Source: a virus. Taken from it: DNA of 32,277 nt. Positions 7,831-28,949 of the stretch are shown in pieces. Where the stretch lies: positions 1-32,277 of the IMG/VR virus record IMGVR_UViG_3300031658_000057. One strand, 5' to 3'. The first letter of the stretch is position 1; the number at the start of each line of letters is the position of its first letter. Under the pieces are notes generated by a model. The model ran no database searches. It was given only the letters and a program-made list of their open reading frames with translations, and was not told the origin of the DNA. The position numbers and the translations under genes are program-made.

Positions 7831-7831
7831 T

Positions 7832-9816: not shown

Positions 9817-9817
9817 A

Positions 9818-10632: not shown

Positions 10633-10641
10633 TTTTTTTCA

Positions 10642-10649: not shown

Positions 10650-10652
10650 ACT

Positions 10653-12186: not shown

Positions 12187-12190
12187 CTAA

Positions 12191-12280
12191 ATAAGGGAGA
12201 GTAGGCAATTTTGCCTAATTAAGCTAATGGGTGTATAAGAACATCCCTTTTAATATTAAATGTTGCTCTCCTTTATTTTT
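12191..12280 (+). ncRNA. Candidate structured RNA (three-way junction), with terminator-like end
   Basis: The 107-nt gap between genes folds well. An 11-bp closing stem pairs ATAAGGGAGAG (12191-12201) with CTCTCCTTTAT (12266-12276), with one G-U pair, and is followed by TTTT. Inside are a perfect hairpin TAGGCAATTTTGCCTA (12202-12217) and a second stem GGGTGT (12229-12234) with ACATCCC (12241-12247, one bulge). This is more elaborate than a simple terminator. It does not match a riboswitch or ribozyme consensus I know. It could be a small phage RNA, a leader regulator of the zinc-ribbon gene, or a complex terminator. Confidence 0.5.
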
Positions 12281-12293
12281 AAAACTAAATACT

Positions 12294-12524
12294 ATGTTAA
12301 AATATCAATGTAATAAATGTGAAATACAAAAAGAATTAAGCAAAGTAGTAATGAAAGTGATAGAAGGAAAAGTCGTTAATGTCGGAACAGAATGTCCAAA
12401 ATGTGGAGAATATATGCAAGAAATTTTTAAGTTTGGTGGTTTCCCAAACATTAAAAGAACAGAGCCTACATTATCTAATAAGAATGATAAACTTTGGAAC
12501 AGGGCTAAAGATACTATGTCATAA
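12294..12524 (+). CDS. Zinc-ribbon protein
   Basis: 76 residues from the ATG at 12294, preceded by an A-rich leader; the GTG at 12231 lies inside the RNA structure and is rejected. CNKCEIQKEL near the N terminus and CPKCGEYM about 30 residues later form a four-cysteine zinc ribbon, similar in pattern to FmdB-like and other small phage zinc ribbons. The C terminus is basic (NKNDKLWNRAKD). Role unknown; such ribbons bind nucleic acid or proteins. The next ATG overlaps its stop (TAATG). Confidence 0.65.
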   Translation: MLKYQCNKCEIQKELSKVVMKVIEGKVVNVGTECPKCGEYMQEIFKFGGFPNIKRTEPTLSNKNDKLWNRAKDTMS

Positions 12525-12940
12525 TGATTAGTAGATATTTTCAAAATATAAAAAATATACTTATATACTTTGACTATCATAGCTTATTGTTTTGGTGGTG
12601 TATAAGCGACTGCCTTAACAATCAGGTATTATGGACAACATATTCTTATTGGTTTGAATTAGGGCAGCCTAATACGTATTGGCTATATCTTACTTATCTT
12701 ATTCTTTCTGTGTCTATAGTTTTATCATTAAACAACTTAAACTACTTAATAAGATTTATAGGTATGTATTTAGTATTATATTTATTTTCAACTGTTAGAT
12801 ATTGCCTAAGTATTTATACTGAGGAAAACTTTGATTTACAAGACTTTAGGGCTTTGCTAATAACATCTTGGTATTTCTCTATGTGGTTATGGATATATCT
12901 AAAACTAAAAAAAGAACAATTACATAAAAGTCTATTATGA
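12524..12940 (+). CDS. Multi-span membrane protein of unknown function
   Basis: 138 residues, aromatic and leucine-rich, with hydrophobic segments at about 20-30, 52-70 (YWLYLTYLILSVSIVLSL), 73-93 (YLIRFIGMYLVLYLFSTV) and 108-126 (LLITSWYFSMWLWIYLKL), and a basic C terminus. It is an inner-membrane protein. It lies at the end of the early/middle block, just before a coiled-coil membrane protein (ATGA overlap), so the two may work together. No family recognised; superinfection exclusion or a lysis accessory are guesses. Confidence 0.65.
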   Translation: MISRYFQNIKNILIYFDYHSLLFWWCISDCLNNQVLWTTYSYWFELGQPNTYWLYLTYLILSVSIVLSLNNLNYLIRFIGMYLVLYLFSTVRYCLSIYTEENFDLQDFRALLITSWYFSMWLWIYLKLKKEQLHKSLL

Positions 12941-13233
12941 ATGATAACTTAACTACAATAATTATAACAACAATATCTGTAATGTTTGGTGCAGGGGGTT
13001 GGAAGTTTTACGAGTTTCTGATAAGAAACAAAAGAGAAAAAGATAAAGAAGAAAAATCAGAGCAATCTATATATAGAGATGATTTAAAAATCAGAGTAGA
13101 TAAATTAGAAATATACAAAGATGATTGTGTAATGACAATGTTAGATTTAAAAACAGAACTTGCTAAATTAAAAGTTACTGTTGAATTTTTACAAAAAGAA
13201 AACGAAGTATTAAAAATTAAATTACAAAAATAA
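12937..13233 (+). CDS. Membrane-anchored coiled-coil protein
   Basis: 98 residues: an N-terminal hydrophobic helix at about 6-28 (TTIIITTISVMFGAGGWKFY), a highly charged linker, and a predicted coiled coil at about 45-98 with heptad-like leucines (VDKLEIYKDD, MLDLKTELAKLK, VEFLQKENEVLKIKL). The architecture resembles inner-membrane spanin subunits or other small anchored phage proteins, but no outer-membrane lipoprotein partner (spanin o-subunit) is evident. It ends 25 nt before the ParB-like gene's ATG, in the gap that holds the first late element. Confidence 0.6.
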   Translation: MNDNLTTIIITTISVMFGAGGWKFYEFLIRNKREKDKEEKSEQSIYRDDLKIRVDKLEIYKDDCVMTMLDLKTELAKLKVTVEFLQKENEVLKIKLQK

Positions 13234-13243
13234 AAATTAACTA

Positions 13244-13261
13244 TTTCTATTATATAATATG
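13244..13261 (+). promoter_or_regulatory. Putative late promoter element, copy 1
   Basis: TTTCTATTATATAATATG, whose last three bases are the ATG of the ParB-like gene. It contains the 12-bp palindrome TATTATATAATA. Preceded by ATTAACTA. A near-identical element and flank occur at 16544. If this is the promoter, the message is leaderless or nearly so. No Shine-Dalgarno is present. It heads the ParB, glycosyltransferase and terminase operon. Confidence 0.65.
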
Positions 13262-13963
13262 AAGTTAAAAATCAATGAGTTAAAACCAAATCAAGATAAT
13301 CCTAGAATTATAAAAGAAGGTAAATTTAAAAAACTTGTAAAGTCTATTAAAGAATTTCCTGAAATGTTAGAACTTAGACCAATAGTGGTAGATGAAGATA
13401 TGACTATTTTAGGTGGTAATATGAGATATAAAGCTTGTGTAGAAGCAGGAATAAAAGAAGTATATATAAAAATTGCAAAAGATTTAACAAAAGAACAAAA
13501 AAGAGAATTTATAATAAAAGATAATTTAAGTTTTGGGGAATGGGATTGGGATATTATTGCTAATGAATGGAGTGTAGAACCTTTAGAGACTTGGTCTTTA
13601 GATTTACCTTTGTATGATGAAAATAAATACACTAAAAATATAGAAGCACCTAGCTATAAACCAACAAATATTAAACCTGAAATATATCAATTATTTGATG
13701 ATACTAAATCTTTAGAATTAATTGAAAAAATTAAAAAAAGCAATGTAAATGAGGAAATAAAAGATTTTTTAATTAAATCAGCTTATAGACATATAGTTTT
13801 TAACTATGAAAATATAGCAGAATTTTATACACATAATGATAAAGAAGTACAAGAATTGATGGAAGAATCTGCTTTAATAATTATAGATTTAAATAAAGCT
13901 ATTAAAAATGGATTTGTACAAATGACAGAATACTTAATGAATATACAACAAGAAGATGAATAA
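13259..13963 (+). CDS. ParB-like N-terminal domain protein
   Basis: 234 residues. Residues 4-95 match the ParB/Srx-like domain used by phage and plasmid partition proteins and phage modification enzymes: INELKPNQDNPRII, KLVKSIKEFPEMLELRPIVV, then ILGGNMRYKACVEAG (50-64; GGNMR is the expected motif). It ends with an acidic helical region. In phages, such proteins often pair with DNA-modifying enzymes or terminases, and some have nuclease or CTP-binding activity; none is proven here. Next to it (8-nt overlap) is a glycosyltransferase. Together they begin the late operon headed by the element at 13244. Confidence 0.8.
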   Translation: MKLKINELKPNQDNPRIIKEGKFKKLVKSIKEFPEMLELRPIVVDEDMTILGGNMRYKACVEAGIKEVYIKIAKDLTKEQKREFIIKDNLSFGEWDWDIIANEWSVEPLETWSLDLPLYDENKYTKNIEAPSYKPTNIKPEIYQLFDDTKSLELIEKIKKSNVNEEIKDFLIKSAYRHIVFNYENIAEFYTHNDKEVQELMEESALIIIDLNKAIKNGFVQMTEYLMNIQQEDE

Positions 13964-14801
13964 AGATTTAGCTATATTTATTATGGTTCACGGTAGACCT
14001 GATAAGATGTGGACTTATAATAACCTAAGAAAATCAGGATATACAGGGCAAATTTTTTTAGTAGCAGATAATTTAGATGATACAAGATTTAAGTATAAAG
14101 AAAAATATGGAAAAGAATTATTAATCTTTGATAAAAAAAAAGCAGCACTAAATTGCGAATCCGGAGATAATACTAATGATTTAAGAAGTACATTATATTC
14201 AGCTAATACAATTTTTGAGTTAGCTAAAGAAAAAAAATTTAAATACTTTTTTATTATGTGTGATGATTACACAGGTTTTTATCATAATTTCAATAAAGAT
14301 TTAAAGTTTAAAAAAACTGCTATTAAAAGTTTAGATAAAGTTTTTAAAAGTATGTTAGATTTTTATAAGAAAACACCAATATTAACATTAGCTATGGCTC
14401 AGGCAGGGGATTTTATAGGTGGAGAAAAAGGAGGTAATGCTAAAGTTAAACTTATGCGAAAAGCTATGAATACTTTTTTGTGTAGTACGGATAGACCTTT
14501 TAAATTTACAGGTAGATTAAATGAAGATGTTACAACTTACGTTAACTTAGGAAGGGTAGGCAAATTATTTATGACAATAACAAATTTATGTATAGTTCAG
14601 AAAGGACATCAACAGGAAAAAAGTGGTTTAACAGAAGTGTATTTAGATTACGGAACATACGTTAAATCATTTTTTTCAGTAATGTATAATCCATCTTGCG
14701 TTAAAATATCTGACTTAGGAACTAAACATAAAAGAATACATCATAAAATTAAATGGAAAAATGCAGTACCTAAAATAATAGAAGAAATTTATAAAAAATA
14801 A
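13956..14801 (+). CDS. Glycosyltransferase of TET-associated (TAGT) type
   Basis: 281 residues. The N terminus has a nucleotide-sugar fold pattern (GRPDKMWTYNNLRKSGYTGQ, IFLVADNLDD) and a DxD-like DDYTGF (103-108). The middle has NEDVTTY (189-195). The C terminus has EVYLDYGTYVKSFFSVMYNP, then HHKIKWKNAVPKI. These blocks match what I know of the TET-associated glycosyltransferase family of phages, which adds sugars to hydroxymethylated bases of phage DNA. No TET dioxygenase, C5-methyltransferase or thymidylate-type hydroxymethylase is seen here, so the acceptor is unknown. It overlaps the ParB-like gene by 8 nt and touches the small terminase start (TAATG). Confidence 0.7.
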   Translation: MNKDLAIFIMVHGRPDKMWTYNNLRKSGYTGQIFLVADNLDDTRFKYKEKYGKELLIFDKKKAALNCESGDNTNDLRSTLYSANTIFELAKEKKFKYFFIMCDDYTGFYHNFNKDLKFKKTAIKSLDKVFKSMLDFYKKTPILTLAMAQAGDFIGGEKGGNAKVKLMRKAMNTFLCSTDRPFKFTGRLNEDVTTYVNLGRVGKLFMTITNLCIVQKGHQQEKSGLTEVYLDYGTYVKSFFSVMYNPSCVKISDLGTKHKRIHHKIKWKNAVPKIIEEIYKK

Positions 14802-15154
14802 TGGACAAAAGTAGACATATAAAAAAGGAAAGCATTTTAAAAGCATTAGAAAACACTTTAGGTGTAGTAACTATGGCTTGTAAATCAGCAGATATACCAC
14901 GTTCAACATACTACAAATGGTTAAAAGAAGATGATGAATTTGCTAAGGCAGTTAAAGATATTGAAAACATAGCTTTAGACTTTGGGGAAAGCCAATTACA
15001 TAAACAGATAGGAGATGGTAACACCTCGGCAACTATATTCTTTTTAAAGACTAAGGGAAAGAAACGAGGTTATATTGAACGTAACGAATTAGATATTACT
15101 TCAGGAGATGAGCCAATTAAAATCAATGTAAACATCAAAGGAATTGAATATTGA
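14801..15154 (+). CDS. terS: Terminase small subunit
   Basis: 117 residues. A helix-turn-helix is visible at about 18-45: NTLGVVTMACKSADIPRSTY with YYKWLKEDDEF after it, typical of the DNA-recognition domain of small terminases. A helical oligomerisation part follows (IENIALDFGESQLHKQ), and NTSATIFFLKTKGKKRGY is a common C-terminal motif of phage small terminases. It would bind the packaging site and regulate the large subunit. Located immediately before, and overlapping by 11 nt, the large subunit gene. Confidence 0.85.
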   Translation: MDKSRHIKKESILKALENTLGVVTMACKSADIPRSTYYKWLKEDDEFAKAVKDIENIALDFGESQLHKQIGDGNTSATIFFLKTKGKKRGYIERNELDITSGDEPIKINVNIKGIEY

Positions 15155-16454
15155 TACTGAATTTACTCATACTCAAGGACAAGCCATTGAATACTTGTTT
15201 GATGATAAGACTACGGAAGTTTTGTTTGGTGGTGCAGCAGGTGGTGGTAAGTCTTGGGTAGGTTGTGCTTGGTTAATTCTTTTATGTATTAAATACCCTA
15301 AGACAAGATACTTAATGGGTAGGTCTAAGTTAGATGCCCTTAAAAAAACTACACTAAACACATTTTTTGAAGTATGTCAAGAGTGGGGAATCTTAGCAAA
15401 CAAGCACTATAATTTTAATGCAGGTTCAAATATCATTAAGTTCTATAATGGTAGTGAGATAATACTTAAAGACTTATTCTTATACCCATCAGACAGGAAC
15501 TTTGATAGTTTAGGTTCATTAGAAATTACTGCTGCTTTTATAGATGAAGCAAATCAAATAACAGAGAAGGCAAAGAACATAGTAGCATCTAGGATGAGGT
15601 ATAAGTTAGATGATTATGGTATTATACCTAAGTTACTTATGACTTGTAACCCTGCAAAGAATTGGGTATATACTCAATACTATAAACCTGCAAAGGAAGG
15701 TACACAAAAACCATACAGACAATTCATTCAAAGTCTTGTTGATGATAATCAGTTTATATCTAAGCACTATAAGAAACAGTTACTAACTTTAGATGAGTTA
15801 AGCAAACAAAGACTGCTATTTGGTAATTGGGAATATGATGCAACAAATGATAATTTAATAGAATATGATGCTATTATTAATTTATTTGACCAAAATGGAA
15901 TGGAAGGAGAAAAATACATAAGTTGTGATGTAGCACGTTTTGGAAGCGATAAGACAGTTATAATGCTTTGGGAAGGTTTACATATTAAAAAGATAAGAAG
16001 TATCCTTAAATCGGCTGTAAATGAGGTTGTAGATGAAATTAGAGCTATGCAACAAGCAAACAATGTAAGACTGACTAATATTATAGTTGATGAAGATGGT
16101 GTTGGTGGTGGGGTAGTTGATTATATGAGATGCAGAGGTTTTGTAAATAATTCAAGAGCAATAAAAGGAGAGAACTATCAAAACTTAAAGACACAATGCT
16201 ATTATAAATTAGCTGAAAAAGTAAATACTGCACAGATTGGTATTGAATGTGCTGATGTTAATGTTAAAAATCTTATAATTGAAGAACTAGAGCAAGTAAG
16301 AACTAAAGATGCAGATAAAGATAACAAGTTACAAATCATACCTAAGGATTCTATTAAAGATATTATAGGTAGGTCCCCTGATTATGCAGATGCTTTAGCT
16401 ATGCGAATGTATTTTGAAATAGATGGTAACTATGGAAAGTATTATGTGCAATAA
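15144..16454 (+). CDS. terL: Terminase large subunit
   Basis: 436 residues, normal length. ATPase motor: Walker A GGAAGGGKS (29-37), Walker B/catalytic AAFIDEAN (130-137), coupling motif LLMTCNP. Nuclease domain: ISCDVARFGSDKT supplies the first metal-binding Asp, IIVDEDGVGGGVVDYM the second, and SPDYADALAM the C-terminal acidic site. It cuts and packages phage DNA into the prohead through the portal. The start is TTG, with AAAGGA just upstream, and overlaps terS by 11 nt. An apparent terminator lies right after its stop. Confidence 0.95.
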   Translation: MNIDTEFTHTQGQAIEYLFDDKTTEVLFGGAAGGGKSWVGCAWLILLCIKYPKTRYLMGRSKLDALKKTTLNTFFEVCQEWGILANKHYNFNAGSNIIKFYNGSEIILKDLFLYPSDRNFDSLGSLEITAAFIDEANQITEKAKNIVASRMRYKLDDYGIIPKLLMTCNPAKNWVYTQYYKPAKEGTQKPYRQFIQSLVDDNQFISKHYKKQLLTLDELSKQRLLFGNWEYDATNDNLIEYDAIINLFDQNGMEGEKYISCDVARFGSDKTVIMLWEGLHIKKIRSILKSAVNEVVDEIRAMQQANNVRLTNIIVDEDGVGGGVVDYMRCRGFVNNSRAIKGENYQNLKTQCYYKLAEKVNTAQIGIECADVNVKNLIIEELEQVRTKDADKDNKLQIIPKDSIKDIIGRSPDYADALAMRMYFEIDGNYGKYYVQ

Positions 16455-16455
16455 A

Positions 16456-16483
16456 AAAGGTGCAACCCTTAGATTACACCTTT
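16456..16483 (+). terminator. Probable intrinsic terminator after terL
   Basis: AAAGGTG (16456-16462) pairs with CACCTTT (16477-16483) around a 14-nt loop, 2 nt after the terL stop. The following T-rich stretch is short (CTT), so it may be a moderate terminator. It precedes the next late element (16544), consistent with independent transcription of tail genes. Confidence 0.5.
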
Positions 16484-16543
16484 CTTAACAGAGAAACATT
16501 ATGAAAACGTAACAAATGTACGATATTAAACTAAATATTAACC

Positions 16544-16562
16544 TTTTCTATTATATAATATG
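16544..16562 (+). promoter_or_regulatory. Putative late promoter element, copy 2
   Basis: TTTTCTATTATATAATATG, last three bases being the ATG of the tail-chaperone gene. It shares with copy 1 an upstream ATTAAC and the palindrome TATTATATAATA. The gap 16484-16543 between terminator and element contains no other gene (only a 3-codon ATG AAA ACG TAA). It heads the tail gene operon. Confidence 0.65.
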
Positions 16563-17204
16563 CAAATCAAGATAAACAAAGCAGGTAAAAAAACTAATTA
16601 CAATTTAATTAAAAGTTGGGATGATGTAACTTTAGATAAATGGGTTAAACTAATAACCAAAAAAAATAAACTAAAAGCAAAAGAAGCACAAAATACTATT
16701 AGTGTTTTATCTGATATACCTAAAAAAATTATTAATGAATTAGCTTTAGGAGATGTAGCTATTTTACTCAAAAGAATAGCAGATTTACAAGCTAAAGAAG
16801 ATACTAAACTTAATAAAGTTATTACTATTAATAATGTTAAATATGGTTTCCACCCTAATCTTGAAGAACTTACTCTTGGAGAATATGCAGACATTGAAAC
16901 ATATTTAAATAATGGAATGGAAGATAATATAGATAAAATTATGGCTGTATTATATAGACCTATAACAGAAGAATTAGATGGTAAATATAGTATAGAAGCT
17001 TATGGTAAAAGTGATTTAAGAATGAGGGCTGAAAAGTTTAAGAAGATGAAAGCAAAAGACATATCTAATTGTCTGCTTTTTTTTTGGACTTTCGTAAAAG
17101 AACTGTCGAAAATTTTGCCATTGTATTTAATGGAACGGAATCAAATGATGATAGACAAACTGTCACGGAACAATTTGCAAACAAATGGGGCTGGTTTGGT
17201 GTGA
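16560..17204 (+). CDS. Tail assembly chaperone, short (G-like) product
   Basis: 214 residues in the normal frame. Its N-terminal features (SWDDVTLDKWVKLI, then INNVKYGFHPNLEELTLGEY, IMAVLYRPI) match the G-like tail chaperones of Bacteroidetes siphophages, which bind the tape measure during tail assembly. Near its end is a run of nine T (17077-17085). A -1 slip there continues into a second frame, giving the longer GT-type product. In the normal frame it ends in a helical MMIDKLSRNN region. It starts at the ATG of the late element. Confidence 0.75.
   Translation: MQIKINKAGKKTNYNLIKSWDDVTLDKWVKLITKKNKLKAKEAQNTISVLSDIPKKIINELALGDVAILLKRIADLQAKEDTKLNKVITINNVKYGFHPNLEELTLGEYADIETYLNNGMEDNIDKIMAVLYRPITEELDGKYSIEAYGKSDLRMRAEKFKKMKAKDISNCLLFFWTFVKELSKILPLYLMERNQMMIDKLSRNNLQTNGAGLV
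17077..17085 (+). other. Programmed -1 frameshift slippery site
   Basis: CTTTTTTTTTGG: codons CTT TTT TTT TGG in the G frame. After a one-base backward slip the reading is TTT TTT TTG GAC, with perfect re-pairing on T. The joined frame is 16560-17084 then 17084-17329, about 256 residues. The downstream frame holds the conserved tail-chaperone T module (KWGWFGVMYRLTNG), which lacks an initiation codon of its own. Confidence 0.75.
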
Positions 17205-17329
17205 TGTATCGATTAACAAATGGAGAAATTATTAACTTAGAAAGAATAACAAATCTTAGCTTGTATGAATGTTTGACTTGGCTAACTTATGAAGCAGATT
17301 TAAACGAAACAAAATCAGTACAAAAATGA
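17084..17329 (+). CDS. Tail assembly chaperone, T-like extension (expressed by -1 frameshift)
   Basis: 81 residues read only after the slip at 17077-17085. It carries FANKWGWFGVMYRLTNGEII and LYECLTWLTYEADLNE, a pattern typical of the C-terminal T-like domain of tail chaperones. As an independent gene it would need TTG at 17069 or ATG at 17204; the latter would lose the conserved KWGWFG core, so a fusion is favoured. The GT product normally is made at a few percent of G and bridges the tape measure to tail tube subunits. It overlaps the next gene by 4 nt. Confidence 0.7.
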   Translation: MDFRKRTVENFAIVFNGTESNDDRQTVTEQFANKWGWFGVMYRLTNGEIINLERITNLSLYECLTWLTYEADLNETKSVQK

Positions 17330-17820
17330 CATACTTTAAAGACTACAACAATACTATAGACACCTTAAAGAAATTAGGAGAGCAACACTATATGATTAAG
17401 ACTATAACAACAGGAGATATTTGGGAAGTTGATTTAAAAAAGAACTCATACTTTCCATTAATGCATATTACTCCTGTTAATGCTACAGCAGGAACACATC
17501 AAATGACTTTAAACTTTCAAATATTTATAATGGACTTAGTATTTCCTGACTTAAGTAATGAACAAGAAGTCTTATCTGATTGTCTACAAATATGTAATGA
17601 CTTAATAGGTACATTTAAAAATGGGGAAAGTCTTTTATTATCTAATCAAGGTTTAAATGATATACCTAAATACTTTACGGATGGCGATATAAGTTTAGAA
17701 CCATTTACAGAAAGATTTGATAATGCACCGACAGGTTGGGTGTTTACTTTGCCTGTAATAATAGAAAACGAATACAATACTTGTATAGCACCACAAGCAA
17801 CAACTGATGCAATACAATAA
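17326..17820 (+). CDS. Tail completion/terminator-like protein
   Basis: 164 residues with TTGDIWEVDLKKNSYFPLMH, HQMTLNFQIFIMDLVFPD, and DISLEPFTERFDNAPTGWVF. These blocks are typical of a Bacteroidetes siphophage structural protein of the tail-terminator size class. It overlaps the chaperone by 4 nt. The role is inferred from size and neighbours; it could also be a neck protein. Confidence 0.6.
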   Translation: MTYFKDYNNTIDTLKKLGEQHYMIKTITTGDIWEVDLKKNSYFPLMHITPVNATAGTHQMTLNFQIFIMDLVFPDLSNEQEVLSDCLQICNDLIGTFKNGESLLLSNQGLNDIPKYFTDGDISLEPFTERFDNAPTGWVFTLPVIIENEYNTCIAPQATTDAIQ

Positions 17821-17909
17821 TGTTTGAGATACTAAAGAGATTAAATACGATAAAGATGGATAAACTAACAATACAACTAATACCACCAAAAATAATATGG
17901 CAGATTTAA
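17820..17909 (+). CDS. Possible tiny protein between tail genes
   Basis: A 29-codon frame (MFEILKRLNTIKMDKLTIQL and on) begins in the TAATG overlap with the preceding gene and ends 13 nt into the next gene. Start geometry matches this phage's real junctions and the peptide is amphipathic and basic. It otherwise fills a 76-nt gap. Too short for confidence; may serve only to keep ribosomes moving. Confidence 0.3.
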   Translation: MFEILKRLNTIKMDKLTIQLIPPKIIWQI

Positions 17910-18340
17910 CAACAACCCTTTCTGAATCAGTAGTCTTAAATGGTGCAGTCAGAGGAACAACAAACACAACAACAACTACAGGAATAAATAATGTATATGA
18001 AAGAATTGTAACTTGTACGATAGATGAAATTACACATCTAGCAACTTTTGATTCTGATTCTTTTGGTGCAGCAGTTCAGATAGATAAACAAGATGTAAAA
18101 TATATTAGAATAACTAACTTAGATGCTACTAATGCTTTAGAATTAGCAGTAGTTGGTGCAGCTACATTATACCAAGTAACTTTAGCAGCAGGTCAATCAC
18201 ATATCTTAGGTGCAGCAGTAACTGTTATGTTAGCTGAAGCAGATACTAGTCCTAGCTTTGGAACTATGGCTGACTTGACAAGTATTCAAGTTGAACCTGT
18301 AGCTACTTTAGATGTAGAGATATTTGTAGCTAGTATCTAG
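17897..18340 (+). CDS. Virion structural protein, unknown
   Basis: 147 residues, beta-rich, alanine/threonine-rich, with a low-complexity run of threonines near the start (about residues 20-29). It has VKYIRITNLDATNALELAVV and a YQVTLAAGQSHILG segment, typical of small beta-sandwich virion proteins. It lies between tail completion proteins. It may be a tail or head-decoration component. Its stop overlaps the next GTG start. Confidence 0.6.
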   Translation: MADLTTTLSESVVLNGAVRGTTNTTTTTGINNVYERIVTCTIDEITHLATFDSDSFGAAVQIDKQDVKYIRITNLDATNALELAVVGAATLYQVTLAAGQSHILGAAVTVMLAEADTSPSFGTMADLTSIQVEPVATLDVEIFVASI

Positions 18341-18897
18341 TGATAGCTTTAGAACGATACTTAAATAGCTTTGGACAAAGTGTAGTTAATAAATCAATAG
18401 GTAACCTCAAAAAGAAGAAGAAAGATGTTACAGGGGGTTTAATTAATAGCATTAAATTCAATGTAGTTAAAACTGCTAATGGTTATAAAATAGATTTTTC
18501 TATGGTGGACTATGGTAAGTTTGTAGACAAAGGAGTATCAGGTGCAGGTGGGGAGATAAAGACAGGAAAAAATAAAGGAAGCTATTCAGGTAGTAATAAG
18601 TTTACAGATTATAAAGGACAGACAATGCAAAGTCCATTTAAGTACACTAATAAACAACCACCTACAAAGGCTTTTGATAAGTGGGTAGTAATGAGAGGGA
18701 TAGCACCTAGAGATGCTAAGGGTAGATTTATAACAAGACAGAGTTTAAAATTTGCAATAGCTAGAAGTATATACATTAGAGGTATTGAAGGGATAAGTTT
18801 CTTTCAAAAACCATTAGGATTAGAATTAAAGGGTTTTGCTTCAGGTTTTGGTAAAGCATTAAAAGAAGATATATTAAATAATTTAAAAACAATATGA
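18340..18897 (+). CDS. HK97 gp10-like tail completion protein
   Basis: 185 residues. A basic N terminus, then VDYGKFVDKGVSGAGGEIK (the family's characteristic YA/YGxFVDxG-like core) and a flexible Lys/Gly/Ser stretch, ending in a helical domain with SLKFAIARSIYIRGIEGISF and FGKALKEDI. This resembles HK97 gp10-type head-tail joining/neck proteins. The start is GTG, in a TAGTG overlap with the preceding stop; no ATG offers a better start. Confidence 0.65.
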   Translation: MIALERYLNSFGQSVVNKSIGNLKKKKKDVTGGLINSIKFNVVKTANGYKIDFSMVDYGKFVDKGVSGAGGEIKTGKNKGSYSGSNKFTDYKGQTMQSPFKYTNKQPPTKAFDKWVVMRGIAPRDAKGRFITRQSLKFAIARSIYIRGIEGISFFQKPLGLELKGFASGFGKALKEDILNNLKTI

Positions 18898-20348
18898 GTG
18901 TTATAATAGAACAACAACCATTATATAGAACATTACCTGTAGGGCAAGATATAATATTTACAGTATCAGAAGATGTAATAGTAGCAACTAAATATAACGT
19001 AAAGTTTGTTGCACAAGTATATGTTGCTGATAGTATTAGTAATTTGGGTACTATTAACTCTTTAGTATCTACATTAAAAGTAACACCTAATAATACTGGA
19101 GTTGGTATATTTTCTTTGCAACCAATATTAGAAAGCTATGTAAATCCACAAAATGAAGGTGTTGATTTATTAAACCAAAGTATAAGTACTTATAAAGGTG
19201 TAGATTATAGTTTAAACACACCACACCCAATTCATTTAATAGATAAATATTGTACTAATAAAAACAATTCTAAATTCTTTGCAGTAGATTTTAATATAGA
19301 ATATTATGATACTGCAGATTTAATAAGACTTATAACTTTAGCGCAACCTTTTAAATCTATAAACTTTTTGGTTTTTAATGGAGTATTAGATTATGATTCA
19401 GTATTAAAAAAGACAGGTAATAACTATGGGTTTAATCTAAATGGAATTGGATTAGTAATGAATATTGCCAATGCTTATACAGGTTTATTAGGTAAGTTTA
19501 TAACTAATGCACCATCTACTCAAGATGCAAGGCTAACAGATTATGGTACGTTTTCTTTCTTTAATTATTTAAATGGGCTGATACAGGTAGGTTCAGTAAA
19601 TGGAGATAGGGCTAGTTATTTAAATATAACTCTATATGATAGAGCAGGAAGTACATTGGGGAATGTTATAAGAGTAGACTGTACTATTGCTAATGGTGGT
19701 TGGGATAAGCCTAACTCATTATCAGCAGCTCGGATTATGTATTTTGGAGTTTTCCCTGCTAACCTTGATGGTGCTGCTTATACTGATTGGACAACTAATA
19801 AAGCAAATGTATCTTATTATACTGTACAAGTCTATGACAATACTGAAGTAGCTATTAGTAGAATATACACTATAAATATTGTAGACAATGCCTGTAAAGG
19901 ATATGAAGCAATCAGACTAACTTGGTTAAATCAATACGGAACTTGGGATTATTATACTTTTAGAAAGAAATCAGTAAAATCTTTACAAACTAATAGAACT
20001 CAATATACACAACAAGGAGGTACTTGGAATGAATCAACATTTAGAATTAATGGTTATAAAGGTGGTAAGAAAAACTTTAGAGTAAATACAAAACAATTAA
20101 TTACTGTAAATACTGATTTTATATTAGATAGCGAAGCAGTTTGGTTTGAGGATTTAATTAATAGTACAGATGTTTATTTACTTAATGAGTATTCATCCAC
20201 AGATAGTTTAGGAATTACAAACAAATATGTAGAACCTGTAAGAGTAACTGATTCAAGTTATATAAGAAAAACTAAAGTAAATGATAAACTTATTCAATAT
20301 ACTTTTAATATAGAAAAAACACATAATAAACGAACACACTCTGTATAA
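18894..20348 (+). CDS. Distal tail / baseplate protein
   Basis: 484 residues, beta-rich. The C-terminal half has YEAIRLTWLNQYGTWDYYTF, then TQQGGTWNESTFRINGYKGG, then FRVNTKQLITVNTDFI and EAVWFEDLINSTDVY, ending RKTKVNDKLIQYTFNIEKT. These blocks are familiar from Bacteroidetes siphophage tail-tip proteins of distal-tail-like role. It would form the ring at the end of the tail tube where fibres attach. Position between neck genes and a large tail protein fits. Overlaps both neighbours. Confidence 0.6.
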   Translation: MSVIIEQQPLYRTLPVGQDIIFTVSEDVIVATKYNVKFVAQVYVADSISNLGTINSLVSTLKVTPNNTGVGIFSLQPILESYVNPQNEGVDLLNQSISTYKGVDYSLNTPHPIHLIDKYCTNKNNSKFFAVDFNIEYYDTADLIRLITLAQPFKSINFLVFNGVLDYDSVLKKTGNNYGFNLNGIGLVMNIANAYTGLLGKFITNAPSTQDARLTDYGTFSFFNYLNGLIQVGSVNGDRASYLNITLYDRAGSTLGNVIRVDCTIANGGWDKPNSLSAARIMYFGVFPANLDGAAYTDWTTNKANVSYYTVQVYDNTEVAISRIYTINIVDNACKGYEAIRLTWLNQYGTWDYYTFRKKSVKSLQTNRTQYTQQGGTWNESTFRINGYKGGKKNFRVNTKQLITVNTDFILDSEAVWFEDLINSTDVYLLNEYSSTDSLGITNKYVEPVRVTDSSYIRKTKVNDKLIQYTFNIEKTHNKRTHSV

Positions 20349-23101: not shown

Positions 23102-23940
23102 TGGATTATTTAAGAAACTACAATATAAAACCAAAAGAAGTAACAAGTACAGGAGAGGTTATATTTACTGATGGAACTTATGACTTTCCACCTAATCAAT
23201 TAGCTTGTGAAGCATACGGATATACTTTTAATCAAGCCACAGGTACTTGTTCAGCTTTTAATTATAATTCTAAATTACAAAACAATTTTTCTAATATATT
23301 AAATAATAAAAGTGGAGGGAATACAGATAACGGAACTAAAAACACTATTCTTAATGGACAAGAAAATATTACTAAAGGAAACAATTTTAATAATATATTA
23401 AACGGAGAGAAACACCAGATAGAAAATGGTATTAATAATTCTGTTATACTTAGTGGTTCTTATGGTCAAGCAGTAAATCAAGGAGAAGTAATTTTAGGTG
23501 GTGGAGGTTTTAATAACTCTTTAGGATTAAGTCAGCAATCATTTATACAACAATCTGGTAAAACTACTGATGCTACTGAAACTGCTTTATTAACTCAATT
23601 TTTACCTTTGACATATATTCAAAAGGTAGCTAATTCTGTAATAGCATTTGAAGTAAATGTTATAGGAGTTCATTTTGGTGGTGGTGCAGGAACAGTAGGA
23701 GAATATGGATATTTTCAATTAACAGGTGCAGTACAATTTACAAATGGATTAGCTTCTGACTATCATCAAACAGTACACGCATTAGTTCCTCACGGACATA
23801 GTGGTTTAAACTTAACTGGAGAGATGAAAGATGTTACTGCTACTTCTTTTGGTGTTCACGTTACAGGTATTGCAGAAAACAATATACAATGGACTGCAAG
23901 TATAAAATTATGGCAAAATAAATTAACAATAACTTTTTAG
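23101..23940 (+). CDS. Repeat-containing tail structural protein (YadA-head-like beta repeats)
   Basis: 279 residues. Residues about 55-140 contain degenerate repeats rich in Asn and Gly: FSNILNNKSGGNTDNG, NTILNGQENITKGNN, FNNILNGEKHQIENG, NNSVILSGSYGQAVNQ, GEVILGGGGFNN. The spacing of about 14-18 residues resembles the left-handed beta-roll heads of trimeric adhesins (YadA-like) and some phage fibres. The C-terminal part (160-279) is beta-rich with His/Gly-rich HALVPHGHSGLNL. Trimeric tail-tip or fibre protein is likely; receptor unknown. It precedes the tape measure by 2 nt. Confidence 0.6.
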   Translation: MDYLRNYNIKPKEVTSTGEVIFTDGTYDFPPNQLACEAYGYTFNQATGTCSAFNYNSKLQNNFSNILNNKSGGNTDNGTKNTILNGQENITKGNNFNNILNGEKHQIENGINNSVILSGSYGQAVNQGEVILGGGGFNNSLGLSQQSFIQQSGKTTDATETALLTQFLPLTYIQKVANSVIAFEVNVIGVHFGGGAGTVGEYGYFQLTGAVQFTNGLASDYHQTVHALVPHGHSGLNLTGEMKDVTATSFGVHVTGIAENNIQWTASIKLWQNKLTITF

Positions 23941-23942
23941 AT

Positions 23943-25826
23943 ATGGCAGAAGAAATAGTATTTAACGTACAATCAAATATAAAATCAGTTACTAAAGATA
24001 CTGAAGATTATACTAAATCATTAACAGGTGTTGAATTTGAATTAGATAGAGTAAACCAATCATTAAAAGCATCAAATAAATTTTTAGCAGACCAAAAAAT
24101 AGAATTAATAAATTTAAAAGCTAAACAAGATGCTATACCTAAAGGTGGTTGGTACGCAGGTATGGATAATCTTAATAAAAAGATAAAAGAAACAGAAAAA
24201 AATATTAAAGAAGAAGCAGTTGTAATAGGGCAATTAAAAGAAGAACAAAAAAGTGCAAGTAAAGAAGTTTCTAAATTTAATAAAGAGTTAAAAGAAACTA
24301 ATAAAGAATCAAAAGATTCTATTGGTAATTTTAAAGTTATGGGTGTTTCTTTAAATGGTGTAAAATCATCATTTGGAAAAATAATACCACTTGCTAAAAC
24401 TATGTTTGGTACAATAAAAGCAGGAATACTTAGTACAGGTGTAGGTGCTTTGCTTATAGCTTTTGGTTCTTTAGTAGCATATTTTACAAGTACAAAGAAA
24501 GGTGCAGACCAATTAAAAGTAGTATTTGCAGCTTTAGGTGCAACAGTTAATGTATTAAAAGATAGAATTTCAGGTGTTGGGGAAGCAATTAGTTTAGTGT
24601 TTTCAGGTAAATGGAAAGAAGCAGGGGAAGCACTTAAAGGAACATTTGCAGGTATAGGTGCTGAAATAAAGGCAGATGTTGCTGCTATGACTGCTCTTGA
24701 AAAAAGAACACAAGCATTAAGAGATGCAGAGATAGAATTTACTATACAAAGGGCAGAAACAAGAAAGGAAATAGAAAAAGCAAGACTATTAGCTGAAGAT
24801 GAAACAAAATCACAAGAGGTTAGGATAGCTGCATTAAAAAAAGCATTAGATTTTGAAACAGAAACTACAAATAAAGAATTAGAATTAGCAAGAGAAAGGG
24901 TAGCTATACAAGAGGAACAAATGGATACTGCTGAAAATTTAGTAGAAGCAGAAAAACAATTAGCAGATTTTAAAGCAGATTTAATAAATAAAGAAACAAA
25001 ATCAATAAGGTTACAAAAAAGAGTACAGACAGAAATTAATGAATTAGAAAGAGAATTATTAACAGAAAAGAAACAAAGGGCTAAAGAAGAACAAGATATA
25101 ATAAATAAAAAAATAGTAGCTGACCAAGAACAAATGGACTTGGAAAACCAAGCTAAATTAGATGCTTATAACAAATTAAAAGCCCTAGAAGATGAAAACT
25201 TTTTAGCATCTATAGAAGATGAAAAAGAAAGGGCTTTAGCTTTATTAGATATACAATATGATGCAGAATTAGAATCATTAAGTCAATATGAAAATTATTT
25301 AGAATTAAAAGAACAACTTGATATTAAATACAATAATGCAAAAGAAGCATTAGATACTAAACAAAAAGAATGGGAAGAATATACTACAAAAGAAAGGTTA
25401 GGATTAGCTAGTGATGCTTTTGGGCAGATGTCTGAAATAATGGGTAAAGAAACTAAAGCAGGACAAGCAGCAGCAGTTGTTCAAGCAGGTATATCTACTT
25501 ATTTAGGCGCACAAGAAGCATATACATCTATGGCTAAAATACCTGTAGTTGGACCTGTTTTAGGTGGTATTGCAGCAGCAGCAGCAGTAGCTATGGGTTT
25601 AAAAAATATAGCAGCTATAAAAAGTGGTGGTAAAAGTGGTGGTGGTTCTACTAATATACCTGCACCATCAACATCAAATACACCTGCACCTGAAATGTTA
25701 AGTGGTAAATTTGAACTAGGAAATGTAGAACAAGAACAACAACCTGTTCAGGCTTATGTAGTTACAGATAATCTGACAGATAATCAAAACAAATTGGCTT
25801 ACATTAGAAGGAGAGCAACAATTTAA
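23943..25826 (+). CDS. Tape measure protein
   Basis: 627 residues, mostly helical and charged, with long coiled coils (about 45-130 and 245-480). There is a hydrophobic, membrane-like stretch at about 160-185 (GILSTGVGALLIAFGSLVAYF) and an Ala-rich stretch near 545-570 (VGPVLGGIAAAAAVAMGLKN). The C terminus QAYVVTDNLTDNQNKLAYIR is characteristic of Bacteroidetes phage tape measures. It sets tail length, roughly 0.15 nm per residue or about 90-95 nm. No lytic transglycosylase domain is present. A Gly/Ser/Pro linker precedes the C-terminal part. Confidence 0.85.
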   Translation: MAEEIVFNVQSNIKSVTKDTEDYTKSLTGVEFELDRVNQSLKASNKFLADQKIELINLKAKQDAIPKGGWYAGMDNLNKKIKETEKNIKEEAVVIGQLKEEQKSASKEVSKFNKELKETNKESKDSIGNFKVMGVSLNGVKSSFGKIIPLAKTMFGTIKAGILSTGVGALLIAFGSLVAYFTSTKKGADQLKVVFAALGATVNVLKDRISGVGEAISLVFSGKWKEAGEALKGTFAGIGAEIKADVAAMTALEKRTQALRDAEIEFTIQRAETRKEIEKARLLAEDETKSQEVRIAALKKALDFETETTNKELELARERVAIQEEQMDTAENLVEAEKQLADFKADLINKETKSIRLQKRVQTEINELERELLTEKKQRAKEEQDIINKKIVADQEQMDLENQAKLDAYNKLKALEDENFLASIEDEKERALALLDIQYDAELESLSQYENYLELKEQLDIKYNNAKEALDTKQKEWEEYTTKERLGLASDAFGQMSEIMGKETKAGQAAAVVQAGISTYLGAQEAYTSMAKIPVVGPVLGGIAAAAAVAMGLKNIAAIKSGGKSGGGSTNIPAPSTSNTPAPEMLSGKFELGNVEQEQQPVQAYVVTDNLTDNQNKLAYIRRRATI

Positions 25827-25849
25827 AAATCAAATAATAACTAATTAAA

Positions 25850-25865
25850 TCTATTATATTATATG
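25850..25865 (+). promoter_or_regulatory. Putative late promoter element, copy 3
   Basis: TCTATTATATTATATG, with ATG of the prohead protease at its end. One base differs from the main form, which breaks the palindrome. TTAAAAATCAAA lies 16 nt upstream (25823-25834), as at copy 4. It sits in the 36-nt gap after the tape measure stop and starts the head gene cluster. Confidence 0.6.
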
Positions 25866-26597
25866 CCTTGTACAAAATGCGATAACGGAAAATGGAAGTG
25901 GGGAGAAAATGGAGAGTGTAAATACGATTCAAAAGATGCTTGTGAAATAGCTAACCCTAAACATTATAAGAATTTAAAGTCTACTAAGATAGTAGAGTTA
26001 ATTATTAGTGATGAAAGTCAAGAACTTACTATTGATGCTATTAGTTTGGTTACCAGTCCTGCAATAGAGCAAGACTTTGTTTTCTTTGGTAAGGAAAAAA
26101 CTAATTTAACATTTGCTAAGATAGATGAGGAGAAAAGAATGTTGGTTAGTCCTGCTCTAATACCAAATAAACAGATTTTTAGACACGACCCAAATACAGA
26201 TACTGACTACTATGTTTATTTCTCTAAAGATACTGTAAGAGAAGCTAGTCAGCTTTATTTGAAACATAACAATCATCATAAAGCTACATATCAGCACGAA
26301 GATAGAGTTTCAGGAGTATTAACTACTGAATCTTGGATAAAAGAAGGAGATATGGATAAATCTAAACTTTATGGCTATGACCTTCCAAACGGAACTTGGT
26401 TTGTATCTATGAAAATAGAGAATGATGAAATTTGGAATAAGATTAAAGATGGAGAATTGAAGGGTTTAAGCATTGAAGGATTTTTTATTGATAAAATGGA
26501 AAAGATGTCAGAAACAGTTAAACCAACTAATGAAGAAATACTTTCAGCATTAAATGAAATCATAAACGATGTTAAAAATCAAACAAACAATAAATAA
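25863..26597 (+). CDS. Prohead protease, XkdF-like serine protease
   Basis: 244 residues. The core (about 55-210) has the XkdF/Peptidase_S78_2 pattern: DAISLVTSPAIEQDFVFF, RMLVSPALIPNKQIFR, then YQHEDRVSGVLTTESWIKEG (His145 probable catalytic), GTWFVSMKI, and LKGLSIEGFFID (Ser203 probable nucleophile). It would mature the prohead by cleaving scaffold and capsid proteins. The N-terminal 35 residues carry four cysteines (C3, C6, C19, C27) in CTKCDNGKWKWGENGECKY, a possible small zinc knot. Placement before a scaffold-like gene and the capsid gene is standard. Starts at the ATG of late element 3. Confidence 0.85.
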   Translation: MPCTKCDNGKWKWGENGECKYDSKDACEIANPKHYKNLKSTKIVELIISDESQELTIDAISLVTSPAIEQDFVFFGKEKTNLTFAKIDEEKRMLVSPALIPNKQIFRHDPNTDTDYYVYFSKDTVREASQLYLKHNNHHKATYQHEDRVSGVLTTESWIKEGDMDKSKLYGYDLPNGTWFVSMKIENDEIWNKIKDGELKGLSIEGFFIDKMEKMSETVKPTNEEILSALNEIINDVKNQTNNK

Positions 26598-26613
26598 TTC
26601 TATTATATAATAT
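26598..26613 (+). promoter_or_regulatory. Putative late promoter element, copy 4 (not fused to an ATG)
   Basis: TTCTATTATATAATAT with the full palindrome, followed by AAAAAACTAACT and then ATG at 26626, 12 nt downstream. Unlike the other copies it is not fused to the start codon, which argues that the element acts in transcription. TTAAAAATCAAA lies 16 nt upstream (26572-26583). It precedes the scaffold and capsid genes. Confidence 0.65.
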
Positions 26614-26625
26614 AAAAAACTAACT

Positions 26626-27294
26626 ATGGATTTAAAAAAGCAAATATTGGTAGCACTTGGTCTAAATGATGAACAAGCAGAAGTTAATTTAGAATTTCAA
26701 GCGAAATTAGAAGATGGTACAATCATTGTATCAACTGCTAAAACTTTAGAAGCAGGTTCAGACATTTCTGTTCTAACAGAAGATGGTTCTACAATTTTAT
26801 TACCTGAAGGAGAATATAAGACTGAAGAAGGTCTAGCTTTTTCTGTTGTTAAAGAGGGTGTAGTTGCTGAACTATATACTGATGAAGTAGAAAAAGAAAC
26901 TGAAGGAGCACCTGTTGAAGAAGAAGAAGAAATGGCTGAAGATGATGGTAAAGAAGCTGATGTTGAAGATTGGGCAGGTATGGAGAAACGTATCCAAAAT
27001 CTTGAAGATGCAGTTGCAGACCTTAAAAAAGATAAAGATGGTGGAGATGATGAGGTAGAAGAAATGGATTCTGATACTAGTAGTTCTCCTAAAAAAATTA
27101 AAACTACAGAAGAAGTAGAATTTGAATATCAAGCTAAGATAGATGAATTAAATAAAAAAGTAATTGAGTTATCTCAAGAACCTTCTGATTCTCCTGTAGA
27201 CACTAACAAATTTAGCACAGACAAAAAAGATTTAACTCCTGATTTTAGAAAAATGACTAAGAGAGAAAGAATCTTATATAACATAACAAAATAA
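26626..27294 (+). CDS. Scaffold-like capsid assembly protein
   Basis: 222 residues, very acidic in the middle (EKETEGAPVEEEEEMAEDDG) and helical coiled coil at about 120-140 and 165-185, with a basic C-terminal end (RKMTKRERILYNITK). The N terminus has a small beta-rich domain (IIVSTAKTLEAGSDISVLTED). Between protease and capsid gene, with coiled coil and charged tail, it is most likely the assembly scaffold or a scaffold-related protein. No family-specific motif is recognised. Confidence 0.6.
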   Translation: MDLKKQILVALGLNDEQAEVNLEFQAKLEDGTIIVSTAKTLEAGSDISVLTEDGSTILLPEGEYKTEEGLAFSVVKEGVVAELYTDEVEKETEGAPVEEEEEMAEDDGKEADVEDWAGMEKRIQNLEDAVADLKKDKDGGDDEVEEMDSDTSSSPKKIKTTEEVEFEYQAKIDELNKKVIELSQEPSDSPVDTNKFSTDKKDLTPDFRKMTKRERILYNITK

Positions 27295-27316
27295 TTAATT
27301 AAAAAAATAACTAAAA

Positions 27317-28231
27317 ATGGCTTTTACACTTACAAGTAATTACGCAGGAAAGGCAGCAGGATTTTATATTTCGGCTGCACTTAAAGAAGCAACATCATTA
27401 GAACACTTAACAGTTCTACAAAATATCAAGTTCAAAGAAAACATTCAGAAGATGGCAGGTTCATCTTTAGTAAGAAACGCAGATTGTAACTTTACAAATC
27501 ACGGAAATCTTGCTTTAACAGAATCAATCCTTACTCCAAAGAATCTACAAATAAATATGGAGATTTGTAAGATAGACTTACTTTCAGGATGGGAAGCTGA
27601 ACAAATGAAGGCAGGTGCTTGGAATAGAAACGCACCTAAATTTGAGGACTATGTTATTTCTTACTTCACACAACATATTGCTGATGGAGTTGAAGGTTCT
27701 GTATGGTCAGGTGCTGCTGCAACTAACGGACAGTTTGAAGGATTTTTAACTGCTGCTACAGGTGCTTTTGCAGTAAATGGTAATACTGTACCAACTGTTA
27801 ACGCAGGGGGTGCTGCTGTAGCTTATAGTGCTACAAATATCATTGAAAACTTACAAACTATTGCTGCTGCAATCCCATCTACAGTTTATGGTAGAGAAGA
27901 TTTAAGAATATATATGAATTGGAAAACTTACAGATTATATGTTTCAGCTATCTCTACTTTAGGATATGTAAATATGTACTCAATGAATAACGAATACGAA
28001 GCTACATTTGAGGGAATCAAGTTAGCAGTTGTTTATGGAATGCCGGATAACCAATTAGTAGCTGCACAAACTTCTAATCTTTTCTTTGGAACTGACCTCC
28101 TAAGTGACACGACTATGCTGAAAATGCTAGATATGAGTCCTTTGGATGGAAGTGAAAATTTAAGATTTATTGCTAAGTACACAGGTGGAGTTCAGGTAGG
28201 AATTGGTGCTGAAATAGTACATCAACAATAG
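27317..28231 (+). CDS. Major capsid protein (HK97-type candidate)
   Basis: 304 residues, the usual size of an HK97-fold capsid protein without a long N-terminal scaffold domain. Alternating helical and beta segments: KEATSLEHLTVLQNIKFKEN, an E-loop-like region near 55-90, VEGSVWSGAAATNGQFEGFL (130-149), DLRIYMNWKTYRLYVSA, and a C-terminal VYGMPDNQLVAAQTSNLFFG followed by GVQVGIGAEIVHQQ. Protease, scaffold-like protein and this gene are in the expected order. It would form the icosahedral shell. A terminator follows immediately. Confidence 0.8.
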   Translation: MAFTLTSNYAGKAAGFYISAALKEATSLEHLTVLQNIKFKENIQKMAGSSLVRNADCNFTNHGNLALTESILTPKNLQINMEICKIDLLSGWEAEQMKAGAWNRNAPKFEDYVISYFTQHIADGVEGSVWSGAAATNGQFEGFLTAATGAFAVNGNTVPTVNAGGAAVAYSATNIIENLQTIAAAIPSTVYGREDLRIYMNWKTYRLYVSAISTLGYVNMYSMNNEYEATFEGIKLAVVYGMPDNQLVAAQTSNLFFGTDLLSDTTMLKMLDMSPLDGSENLRFIAKYTGGVQVGIGAEIVHQQ

Positions 28232-28246
28232 TAAATAAATTAATAG

Positions 28247-28274
28247 AAAGGGAGAGTAAAAACTCCTTTTCTTT
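28247..28274 (+). terminator. Probable intrinsic terminator after capsid gene
   Basis: AAAGGGAG (28247-28254) pairs with CTCCTTTT (28263-28270, one G-U) around an 8-nt loop, with a T-rich tail (CTTTAACTTTT). It would limit read-through from the very highly expressed capsid gene. Partial read-through into the tail tube gene is plausible. Confidence 0.6.
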
Positions 28275-28294
28275 AACTTTTAAAAAAAATAAAT

Positions 28295-28861
28295 ATGGCT
28301 TGTAATTTAACGCACGGAAGGGGAATACCTTGTAGAGATTTAGTAGGGGGGGTAAAATATATATATTTTGCAAAATTAAGTGATATTGTAGCTGCTAATA
28401 CAGTAATAACTGCAGGGCAATTAGCAACTTTAGATATGACTACTGCTGATTTTTATAGATATTCAATTAGAAGGGGTAATGCATCTGTAACAGAAACTAT
28501 TACAGGTTCAACAGAAAATGGAACTGTTTTCTATGCTCCTTCATTAAATGTAAAATTAACAGGATTAAGCACACAAGACCAAAATGAACTTAAACTGATG
28601 GCTCAATCACAAGTGGTTGCTTTTGTTCAATTAAACCAAATTTTAACAAATGGACACAATGTTATAATGGTTTTAGGTCTTACAAATGGTTTAGACCTTA
28701 ATTCAGGTACTAATGCTTCAGGTGCTGCCTTTGCAGATATGAATGGTTATGATTGGACTTTTGAAGGTTCTGAAGTAGACCCTATGATAACTTGTGAAGA
28801 TTATACTACAACTCCATTAGATAATGCTACTTATACTTATGGTACTATTGTAACTTCTTAA
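28295..28861 (+). CDS. Major tail tube protein candidate
   Basis: 188 residues, beta-rich with few helices. The N terminus MACNLTHGRGIPCRDLVGGV and VKYIYFAKLSDIVA, plus YRYSIRRGNASVTETITGST and MVLGLTNGLDLNSGTNASGA, resemble tail tube-type proteins I know from Bacteroidetes siphophages. Tail tubes are single beta-sandwich proteins of this size. Location between capsid and fibre genes fits a major virion protein. It has no late element of its own, so it depends on read-through past the preceding terminator. Confidence 0.6.
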   Translation: MACNLTHGRGIPCRDLVGGVKYIYFAKLSDIVAANTVITAGQLATLDMTTADFYRYSIRRGNASVTETITGSTENGTVFYAPSLNVKLTGLSTQDQNELKLMAQSQVVAFVQLNQILTNGHNVIMVLGLTNGLDLNSGTNASGAAFADMNGYDWTFEGSEVDPMITCEDYTTTPLDNATYTYGTIVTS

Positions 28862-28885
28862 TAAGGTTTTACATATAATTTAAAG

Positions 28886-28913
28886 AGAGCTACTTAGGTA
28901 GTTCTTTTTTTTT
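28886..28913 (+). terminator. Strong intrinsic terminator
   Basis: AGAGCTAC (28886-28893) and GTAGTTCT (28898-28905, one G-U) form an 8-bp stem with a TTAG tetraloop. T nine times (28905-28913) follows directly. This is the best terminator in the window, ending the head cluster before late element 5. Confidence 0.85.
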
Positions 28914-28931
28914 CCAAACAAAATCAATGTT

Positions 28932-28949
28932 TTTCTATTATATAGTATG
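28932..28949 (+). promoter_or_regulatory. Putative late promoter element, copy 5
   Basis: TTTCTATTATATAGTATG with the ATG of the next gene at its end (one base different from copy 1). It lies 18 nt after the strong terminator at 28886-28913, so it likely starts a new transcript for the small structural and fibre genes. Confidence 0.6.

Follow-up and report, generated by a model that had tools for sequence, protein, structure and literature searches.

The 32,277-nucleotide (nt) viral sequence IMGVR_UViG_3300031658_000057 of IMG/VR (hereafter the window, meaning the whole stretch of DNA that was analysed) carries five copies of a two-part element at the starts of its late operons. We propose, with a probability of about 0.8, that these copies are bipartite late promoters read by a sigma factor that the phage itself encodes at 11002-11565, with transcription starting at an A 13 nt after the first T of the downstream part. 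The parts of this proposal differ in strength: the elements are almost certainly late promoters, and the phage sigma factor is probably their reader. The element, its placement and conservation, the second box at a constant spacing, the sigma-like fold, and the co-occurrence of gene and element are shown here; we infer late transcription, the role of this protein as reader, and the exact start site. The promoter would take the form TNAA[A/C][T/C]AAA - N11 - TCTATTATAT-A-N-T-A(+1), and its components in the window are as follows.

11002 to 11565, + strand: sigma-like protein of 187 amino acids (aa) in the early operon, with one region 2-like and one region 4-like helical domain; candidate late sigma factor
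13228 to 13234, + strand: upstream (-35-like) box of promoter 1, AAATAAA
13246 to 13261, + strand: -10-like half of late promoter 1, TCTATTATATAAT, fused to the ATG of the ParB-like gene 13259-13963, in an operon running on to TerS and TerL; 32.7 bits
16529 to 16535, + strand: upstream box of promoter 2, AACTAAA
16547 to 16562, + strand: late promoter 2, TCTATTATATAAT, fused to the ATG of 16560, the first gene of the tail operon; 37.0 bits
25832 to 25838, + strand: upstream box of promoter 3, AAATAAT
25850 to 25865, + strand: late promoter 3, TCTATTATATTAT, fused to the ATG of the head protease-like gene 25863; 26.3 bits
26581 to 26587, + strand: upstream box of promoter 4, AAACAAA
26599 to 26614, + strand: late promoter 4, TCTATTATATAATATA, with the ATG at 26626 and a predicted leader of 14 nt; 29.9 bits
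28916 to 28922, + strand: upstream box of promoter 5, AAACAAA
28934 to 28949, + strand: late promoter 5, TCTATTATATAGT, fused to the ATG of gene 28947; 21.2 bits

An exact search of the window finds TCTATTATAT on the + strand at 13246, 16547, 25850, 26599, and 28934, just where a preliminary description of this DNA, made from its letters alone, had placed five copies. Over both strands, six exact occurrences are observed when 0.52 are expected, and 100 shuffles gave three at most. The bases to the right of TCTATTATAT vary (AATATG, AATATG, TATATG, AATATA, and AGTATG, in order). All five copies lie on the coding strand ahead of packaging, tail, or head operons, and the genes behind them are a ParB-like/terminase operon, the tail operon, a head protease-like gene, a scaffold-like/capsid pair, and a structural gene. 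No copy stands ahead of any early gene in the window, as the preliminary description had also noted. Early and late are labels taken from gene content: the early block spans 5836-13233, and the late genes comprise ParB-like 13259, TerS 14801, TerL 15144, the tail genes from 16560, tape-measure-like 23943, protease-like 25863, capsid-like 27317, and the portal gene at 1408. Window genes of any size are all on the + strand. The sixth exact occurrence, at 12014-12023 on the - strand, falls within gene 11956-12186 and lacks an upstream box; it is coding sequence and not a promoter.

The conserved TCTATTATAT is only the right half of a larger two-part element. When 82 distinct elements were aligned, a second box with the consensus TNAA[A/C][T/C]AAA appeared, followed by 11 nt and then TCTATTATAT, with the A residues of the box at -18 and -17 conserved in 99-100%. 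All five window copies have the box exactly 18 nt upstream of TCT, and when the elements were sorted by junction class, the box was found at -18 with at most one mismatch in 24/24, 42/43, 5/5, 1/1, 6/6, 1/1, and 2/2 of them. The preliminary description was right that TCTATTATAT is invariant with a variable right end, but it took this stretch for the whole unit and missed both the upstream box and the sigma gene. An independent scan of IMG/VR, in which sites were picked by TCTATTATATNNTATG alone and a sample of matches was listed, points the same way. Among the matches listed, the box accompanies 74 of 76 sites on related contigs and 1 of 54 on unrelated ones, and an ATG that opens a reading frame of at least 100 aa, or one running off the contig, follows 73 of 74 and 4 of 53, respectively. 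A position matrix trained on the relatives, with the window left out and near-identical relatives of promoters 1 and 2 included, recovers exactly five window sites, all at late operon starts, with 21-37 bits; the next match scores 6.5, a gap of 15 bits, and the maximum in random sequence is 9.8. Recovery of promoters 4 and 5 is the cleaner test because they have almost no near-identical relatives in the training set.

The relatives were gathered by a TerL search of IMG/VR, which gave 329 relatives from which 80 loci were kept, and by two sigma-gene searches, a capsid search, and a sequence-only scan of IMG/VR that added further loci. Their genes were called by a simple open-reading-frame script, and counts near contig ends are approximate; many relatives are near-identical, and deduplicated figures are used where possible. 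No 10-mer is more enriched upstream of gene starts than TCTATTATAT in the 1.75 Mb made up of the window and about 155 loci: 185 of its 223 occurrences are in the start zone, and only three coding-strand cases lie within genes. On the reverse strand, 54 of 74 occurrences are within genes. An exact element precedes 59 of 76 homologues of the ParB-like gene 13259 and 100 of 113 homologues of 16560 (110 with at most one mismatch). For 25863 the figures are 14 of 16 in the first family count and 16 of 24 in the capsid loci, where several of the loci not counted have an element nearby that the search left unlinked to a gene start. The capsid loci also show the element before 26 of 27 homologues of 26626 and 26 of 26 of 28947; before the two genes in between it stands in 0 of 30 (capsid) and 0 of 31 (28295), the latter count excluding one copy ahead of the homologue in relative L366 that the script passed over. 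About 1,250 homologues of early genes were tested and essentially none carries the element, the sigma gene itself scoring 0 of 117. The element thus marks the same five boundaries in relatives as in the window, with its placement seen in about 250 related loci.

The candidate reader is recognised by its fold. The AlphaFold model of the 187-aa protein, built with 77 sequences, has a predicted local distance difference test score (pLDDT) of 81 and shows two helical domains joined by a low-confidence linker at residues 94-122. Its top Foldseek matches in the PDB are sigma factors, the first being the extracytoplasmic function (ECF) factor SigL (6dv9_F, E=3e-4), and the viral structure matches include phage ECF-type sigma factors. 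By VIA-align, the model matches Escherichia coli sigma-E with Z 10.5 and a root-mean-square deviation (rmsd) of 13.6 over 154 residues, the rmsd being large because the two domains are placed differently, and its C-terminal domain matches sigma region 4 with Z 10.2 and 1.8 A over 63 residues. Modelled by itself, the N-terminal domain reaches a pLDDT of 92.5, and its highest Z scores (8.4 and 8.2, at an rmsd of 5 A over 85-86 residues) are to ECF sigma region 2; the complex of sigma-E region 2 with -10 DNA gives 6.7. Middling Z scores are common among helical domains. The model has the make-up of an ECF-type sigma factor, namely a sigma2-like and a sigma4-like domain with a linker and neither sigma1.1 nor sigma3, and by modelling the resemblance is clear for the whole protein and for region 4 and moderate for region 2. 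At E up to 0.01 in PHROGs, 28 of 29 members of its family match a phage transcription-regulator family and 23 match a phage sigma family, and relatives of the protein reach best E-values of 2e-5 to 2.4e-4 against the sigma families of Pfam.

The gene travels with the element. It is present in 49 of 49 TerL relatives that have enough upstream sequence. Where more than 6 kb follow the sigma gene, 69 of 79 loci have an exact element; the other 10 have variants such as TATATTATAT, TCTATTACAT, TCTCTTATAT, and TATATACTAT, with the box intact. Neither the sigma gene nor the element was found in the named TerL relatives Flavobacterium phage 11b, Cellulophaga phi10:1, or Polaribacter P12002L, the element having been scanned for in part of the record. 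The phages collection has no homologue of the sigma protein, and a PDB sequence search with the sigma family profile gave no convincing match. The only matches among species genomes were two contigs of 36 kb and 29 kb, L208 (PAPR01000004.1) and L209 (PBGL02000003.1), in metagenome-assembled genomes named Pseudooceanicola and Euryarchaeota, respectively; both are apparently phage contigs binned into the wrong organism.

As we propose it, the early gene 11002-11565 would encode a two-domain ECF-type sigma factor, the region 4-like domain of which would bind the upstream box (predicted DNA target AAACTAAA), while the region 2-like domain would bind TCTATTATAT, the -10 half; two domains for two boxes make a consistent anatomy. 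The factor would turn the core RNA polymerase of the host towards the late operons. A similar arrangement is known from Salmonella phage 7-11, whose sigma factor SaPh711_gp47 has a region 4 and whose bipartite late promoters, GTAAtg-16-aCTA, have starts 6-9 nt away (PMC8948821). The two systems would share a phage sigma factor with region 4, bipartite promoters ahead of late genes, starts at a short distance from the element, and the host core polymerase, and the features by which the 7-11 type can be recognised in sequence are found here as well: an element confined to late operons, two boxes at a fixed spacing, and a phage gene for a sigma-like protein in which regions 2 and 4 are both represented. 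However, the consensus sequences differ, the host of 7-11 is enterobacterial whereas the host here is probably a member of Bacteroidetes, the protein described here is recognised by fold and not by clear sequence homology, and the text searched on 7-11 makes no mention of leaderless mRNAs (PMC8948821). In phiEco32, a relative of 7-11, the sigma factor phi32_gp36 likewise reads a highly conserved -10-like element at middle and late promoters, although that promoter is the single element tAATGTAtA with no upstream box, and the factor lacks region 4 (PMC8948821). The late promoters of T4 also resemble the present ones in serving late genes with a short -10-like element and a small phage sigma factor, gp55, which works without domain 4 (PMC2988020); a -10-like element alone does not describe the promoters here, where the -18 box is conserved in all classes. 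Finally, the late promoters of AR9 are phage-specific and have a start site close to the conserved element, but they are read by a multisubunit non-virion RNA polymerase of the phage (PMC5312081), and no RNA polymerase gene was recognised in the window. In the literature searched, no paper was found that describes the present element, and nothing specific emerged on late promoters of Bacteroidetes phages, on leaderless mRNA, or on sigma factors of flavobacterial phages.

It is also conceivable, if rather unlikely, that these late promoters are read by an alternative sigma factor of the host, or by host sigma-A together with a phage activator, be it the 187-aa protein or something else. The nearest named phages by TerL are Flavobacterium phage 11b (56%) and Cellulophaga phi10:1 (52%), followed by Bacteroides and Polaribacter phages; judged by these TerL relatives, the host most likely belongs to Bacteroidetes. 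Several ECF sigma factors and sigma-54 occur in flavobacteria (PMC9723704), and the weak sequence match of the 187-aa protein to sigma families leaves room for a host factor. Host sigma-ABfr promoters carry TTTG/TAnnTTTG, and an AT-rich motif near -28 has been noted in F. johnsoniae (PMC6847099). The present elements are AT-rich as well; however, neither box contains TTTG, and the -7 element TAnnTTTG is found in none of the five copies, in line with the preliminary description. Nor do the elements fit the -24/-12 pattern of sigma-54 or the host ECF motif with its CGT box (PMC9723704), and TAnnTTTG shows no enrichment, with 44 occurrences in the window against 57 expected. Every testable relative, moreover, has the phage two-domain sigma-like protein.

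Host sigma-A promoters were sought in the window as candidates in their own right and rejected: TAnnTTTG is not enriched, and a single TTTG-spaced pair was found. Generic sigma-70 and terminator scans of the window gave counts at or below those of shuffles. The 301-nt gap at 5535-5835, before the early block, is a natural place for early promoters, and no TTTG...TAnnTTTG host promoter was found in it.

The close contact of the element with start codons would also suit a translation-initiation signal or a start-codon context motif, given that most copies have ATG at offset 13 from the first T of TCT. In the window this holds for every copy but the one at 26599, where gene 26626 has its ATG at offset 27, that is, 12 nt past the 15-nt element, and the preliminary description had drawn from this that the element is not simply a translation start. 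Over 113 distinct sites, the ATG is at 13 in 49, at 14-19 in 20, and at 23-44 in 41, and never at 12; in two sites it is at 11, followed by another in frame at 14, and for one site none was assigned. We regard a translational role as very improbable: the offset ranges from 13 to 44 while TCTATTATAT is invariant, the operon-internal genes counted by family in the relatives never carry the element, and the -18 box lies upstream of the predicted 5' end of the mRNA.

The same sites bear on where transcription would start. Of the 41 sites among 113 with leaders of at least 10 nt (10-31 nt), 93% have A at position 13, which carries 1.62 bits against 0.50 at position 12 and 0.12 at position 14. Since this A is conserved where the ATG lies elsewhere, it is part of the promoter and not just of the start codon, as would be expected for +1. 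Its distance from TATTAT, 6 nt past the last base, is an ordinary one for a start site. Because the A at +1 is conserved even with a distant ATG, the usual copy should start its mRNA at AUG. The start A would be the A of ATG in four of the five window copies, giving leaderless late mRNAs, and the same start at 26599 would give a leader of 14 nt. Leaderless starts at offset-13 sites are likely, a prediction that draws on the conservation of A at +1 and on the lower limit of the ATG offset. Leaderless mRNA is not, however, a fixed property of the element. Of the leaderless or near-leaderless mRNAs suggested in the preliminary description, the 49 sites at offset 13 and the conserved A stand in favour, and the 41 sites with longer leaders do not conform. 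For comparison, few flavobacterial mRNAs are leaderless: the share is 5.5% in F. psychrophilum (PMC9723704), and 87% of F. johnsoniae leaders are longer than 10 nt (PMC6847099).

A separate observation concerns the leaders of relatives in which TerS is the first gene. Eight of them (L208, L211, L216, L227, L274, L294, L310, and L316) have the palindrome TTGATTAATCAA in a leader of 26-30 nt, between the predicted start and the ATG, and a variant, TTGAATAATCAA, is found in other TerS-first leaders, e.g., L209, L215, and L254. It is possible that this palindrome is an operator or an RNA element, for example in TerS autoregulation.

The preliminary description also gave weight to the full palindrome TATTATATAATA. 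It is indeed perfect in three of the five window copies (13246, 16547, and 26599), as would suit an operator at which a phage repressor or activator binds, overlapping ordinary promoters. Such an operator has very little to recommend it, as palindromy is not conserved, the element always points along its operon, and the second box, at one fixed distance, lacks symmetry. As a functional unit the palindrome was rejected, position 11 (counting TCT as 0) carrying about 0.2 bit in the relatives.

The element keeps its place when the gene behind it is swapped: another gene comes first in L036 and L038, TerS in L211, L229, and L274, and, as judged by eye, a 6-pyruvoyl-tetrahydropterin-synthase-like gene in L061 and L063. 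Such retention at operon joints could suggest a module-joint sequence that promotes phage recombination, or common descent of intergenic DNA, but this is scarcely credible when five non-homologous joints have the same two boxes and spacing, and when, among phages with a sigma factor about 48-80% identical to that of the window, flanking intergenic positions have decayed and the boxes have not.

Several observations weigh against our proposal of a late promoter read by a phage sigma factor. The 187-aa protein reaches only 19.9 bits (E=5e-4) against Pfam Sigma70_r4, where the cut-off is 24.1, and 18.2 bits against r4_2, where the threshold is 25.7, and by sequence it falls short of Sigma-70 membership. 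Foldseek with the N-terminal domain alone returned no significant E-value. The co-occurrence of sigma gene and promoter lies within one phage clade, and shared ancestry alone would also produce it. If one trans-acting factor reads all copies, changes in the -10 half should be genome-wide, and the co-variation found is weak: in two contigs all copies are changed at C, six are mixed, and 87 are unchanged. Relative L339, with a sigma factor 37% identical, shows no recognisable element, but with a mere 300 nt or so of sequence after the sigma gene it does not count against the pairing. A few one-mismatch -10 variants (L074 and L319) have ATG at 11, which does not fit simply, and raw counts overstate the independent evidence because many relatives are near-identical. 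The preliminary description had read the element as a phage-specific late promoter, and that reading now has strong support from its placement in about 250 loci, the second box, the lack of fit to host promoters, and the accompanying sigma-like gene.

Other features of the late region are recorded here. Just upstream of promoter 5 lies the following structure.

28882 to 28911, + strand: hairpin followed by a T run; -13.4 kcal/mol, z -3.6

A second hairpin, at 28245-28272, follows the capsid gene. The two are probably terminators between late operons, with 28882-28911 ending the operon that precedes promoter 5. The first late operon holds at 13259-14801, ahead of the terminase genes, the ParB-like gene and a gene matching phrog_842 (annotated as beta-glucosyl-HMC-alpha-glucosyltransferase), and it is possible that this pair links DNA modification to packaging. 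Both contig ends (232-1035; 29881-31953 and 31954-32277) fall within Laminin_G/tail-fibre-like genes that resemble each other and repeat certain motifs (VTNGDFATD...), which suggests that the assembly broke in repeated fibre genes.

We consider it somewhat better than an even chance that, across a large clade of uncultured Bacteroidetes phages, many late mRNAs are started at AUG by a two-domain sigma factor of the phages' own, so that one 30-nt sequence would set both promoter recognition and translation start, with no leader needed in a host that lacks Shine-Dalgarno initiation and in which leaderless mRNA is rare. The promoter and the sigma factor form a directly testable pair for a widespread marine phage group with no cultured member in the collections searched, and they would be an independent case of the kind that the authors of the 7-11 study predicted, namely that further sigma/promoter pairs would be described. 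With the element known, sequence alone is enough to annotate the late operons of hundreds of viral contigs. Should their late mRNAs prove leaderless, these phages would offer a natural system for leaderless initiation in Bacteroidetes, and the pair may serve for orthogonal expression in bacteria with few genetic tools.

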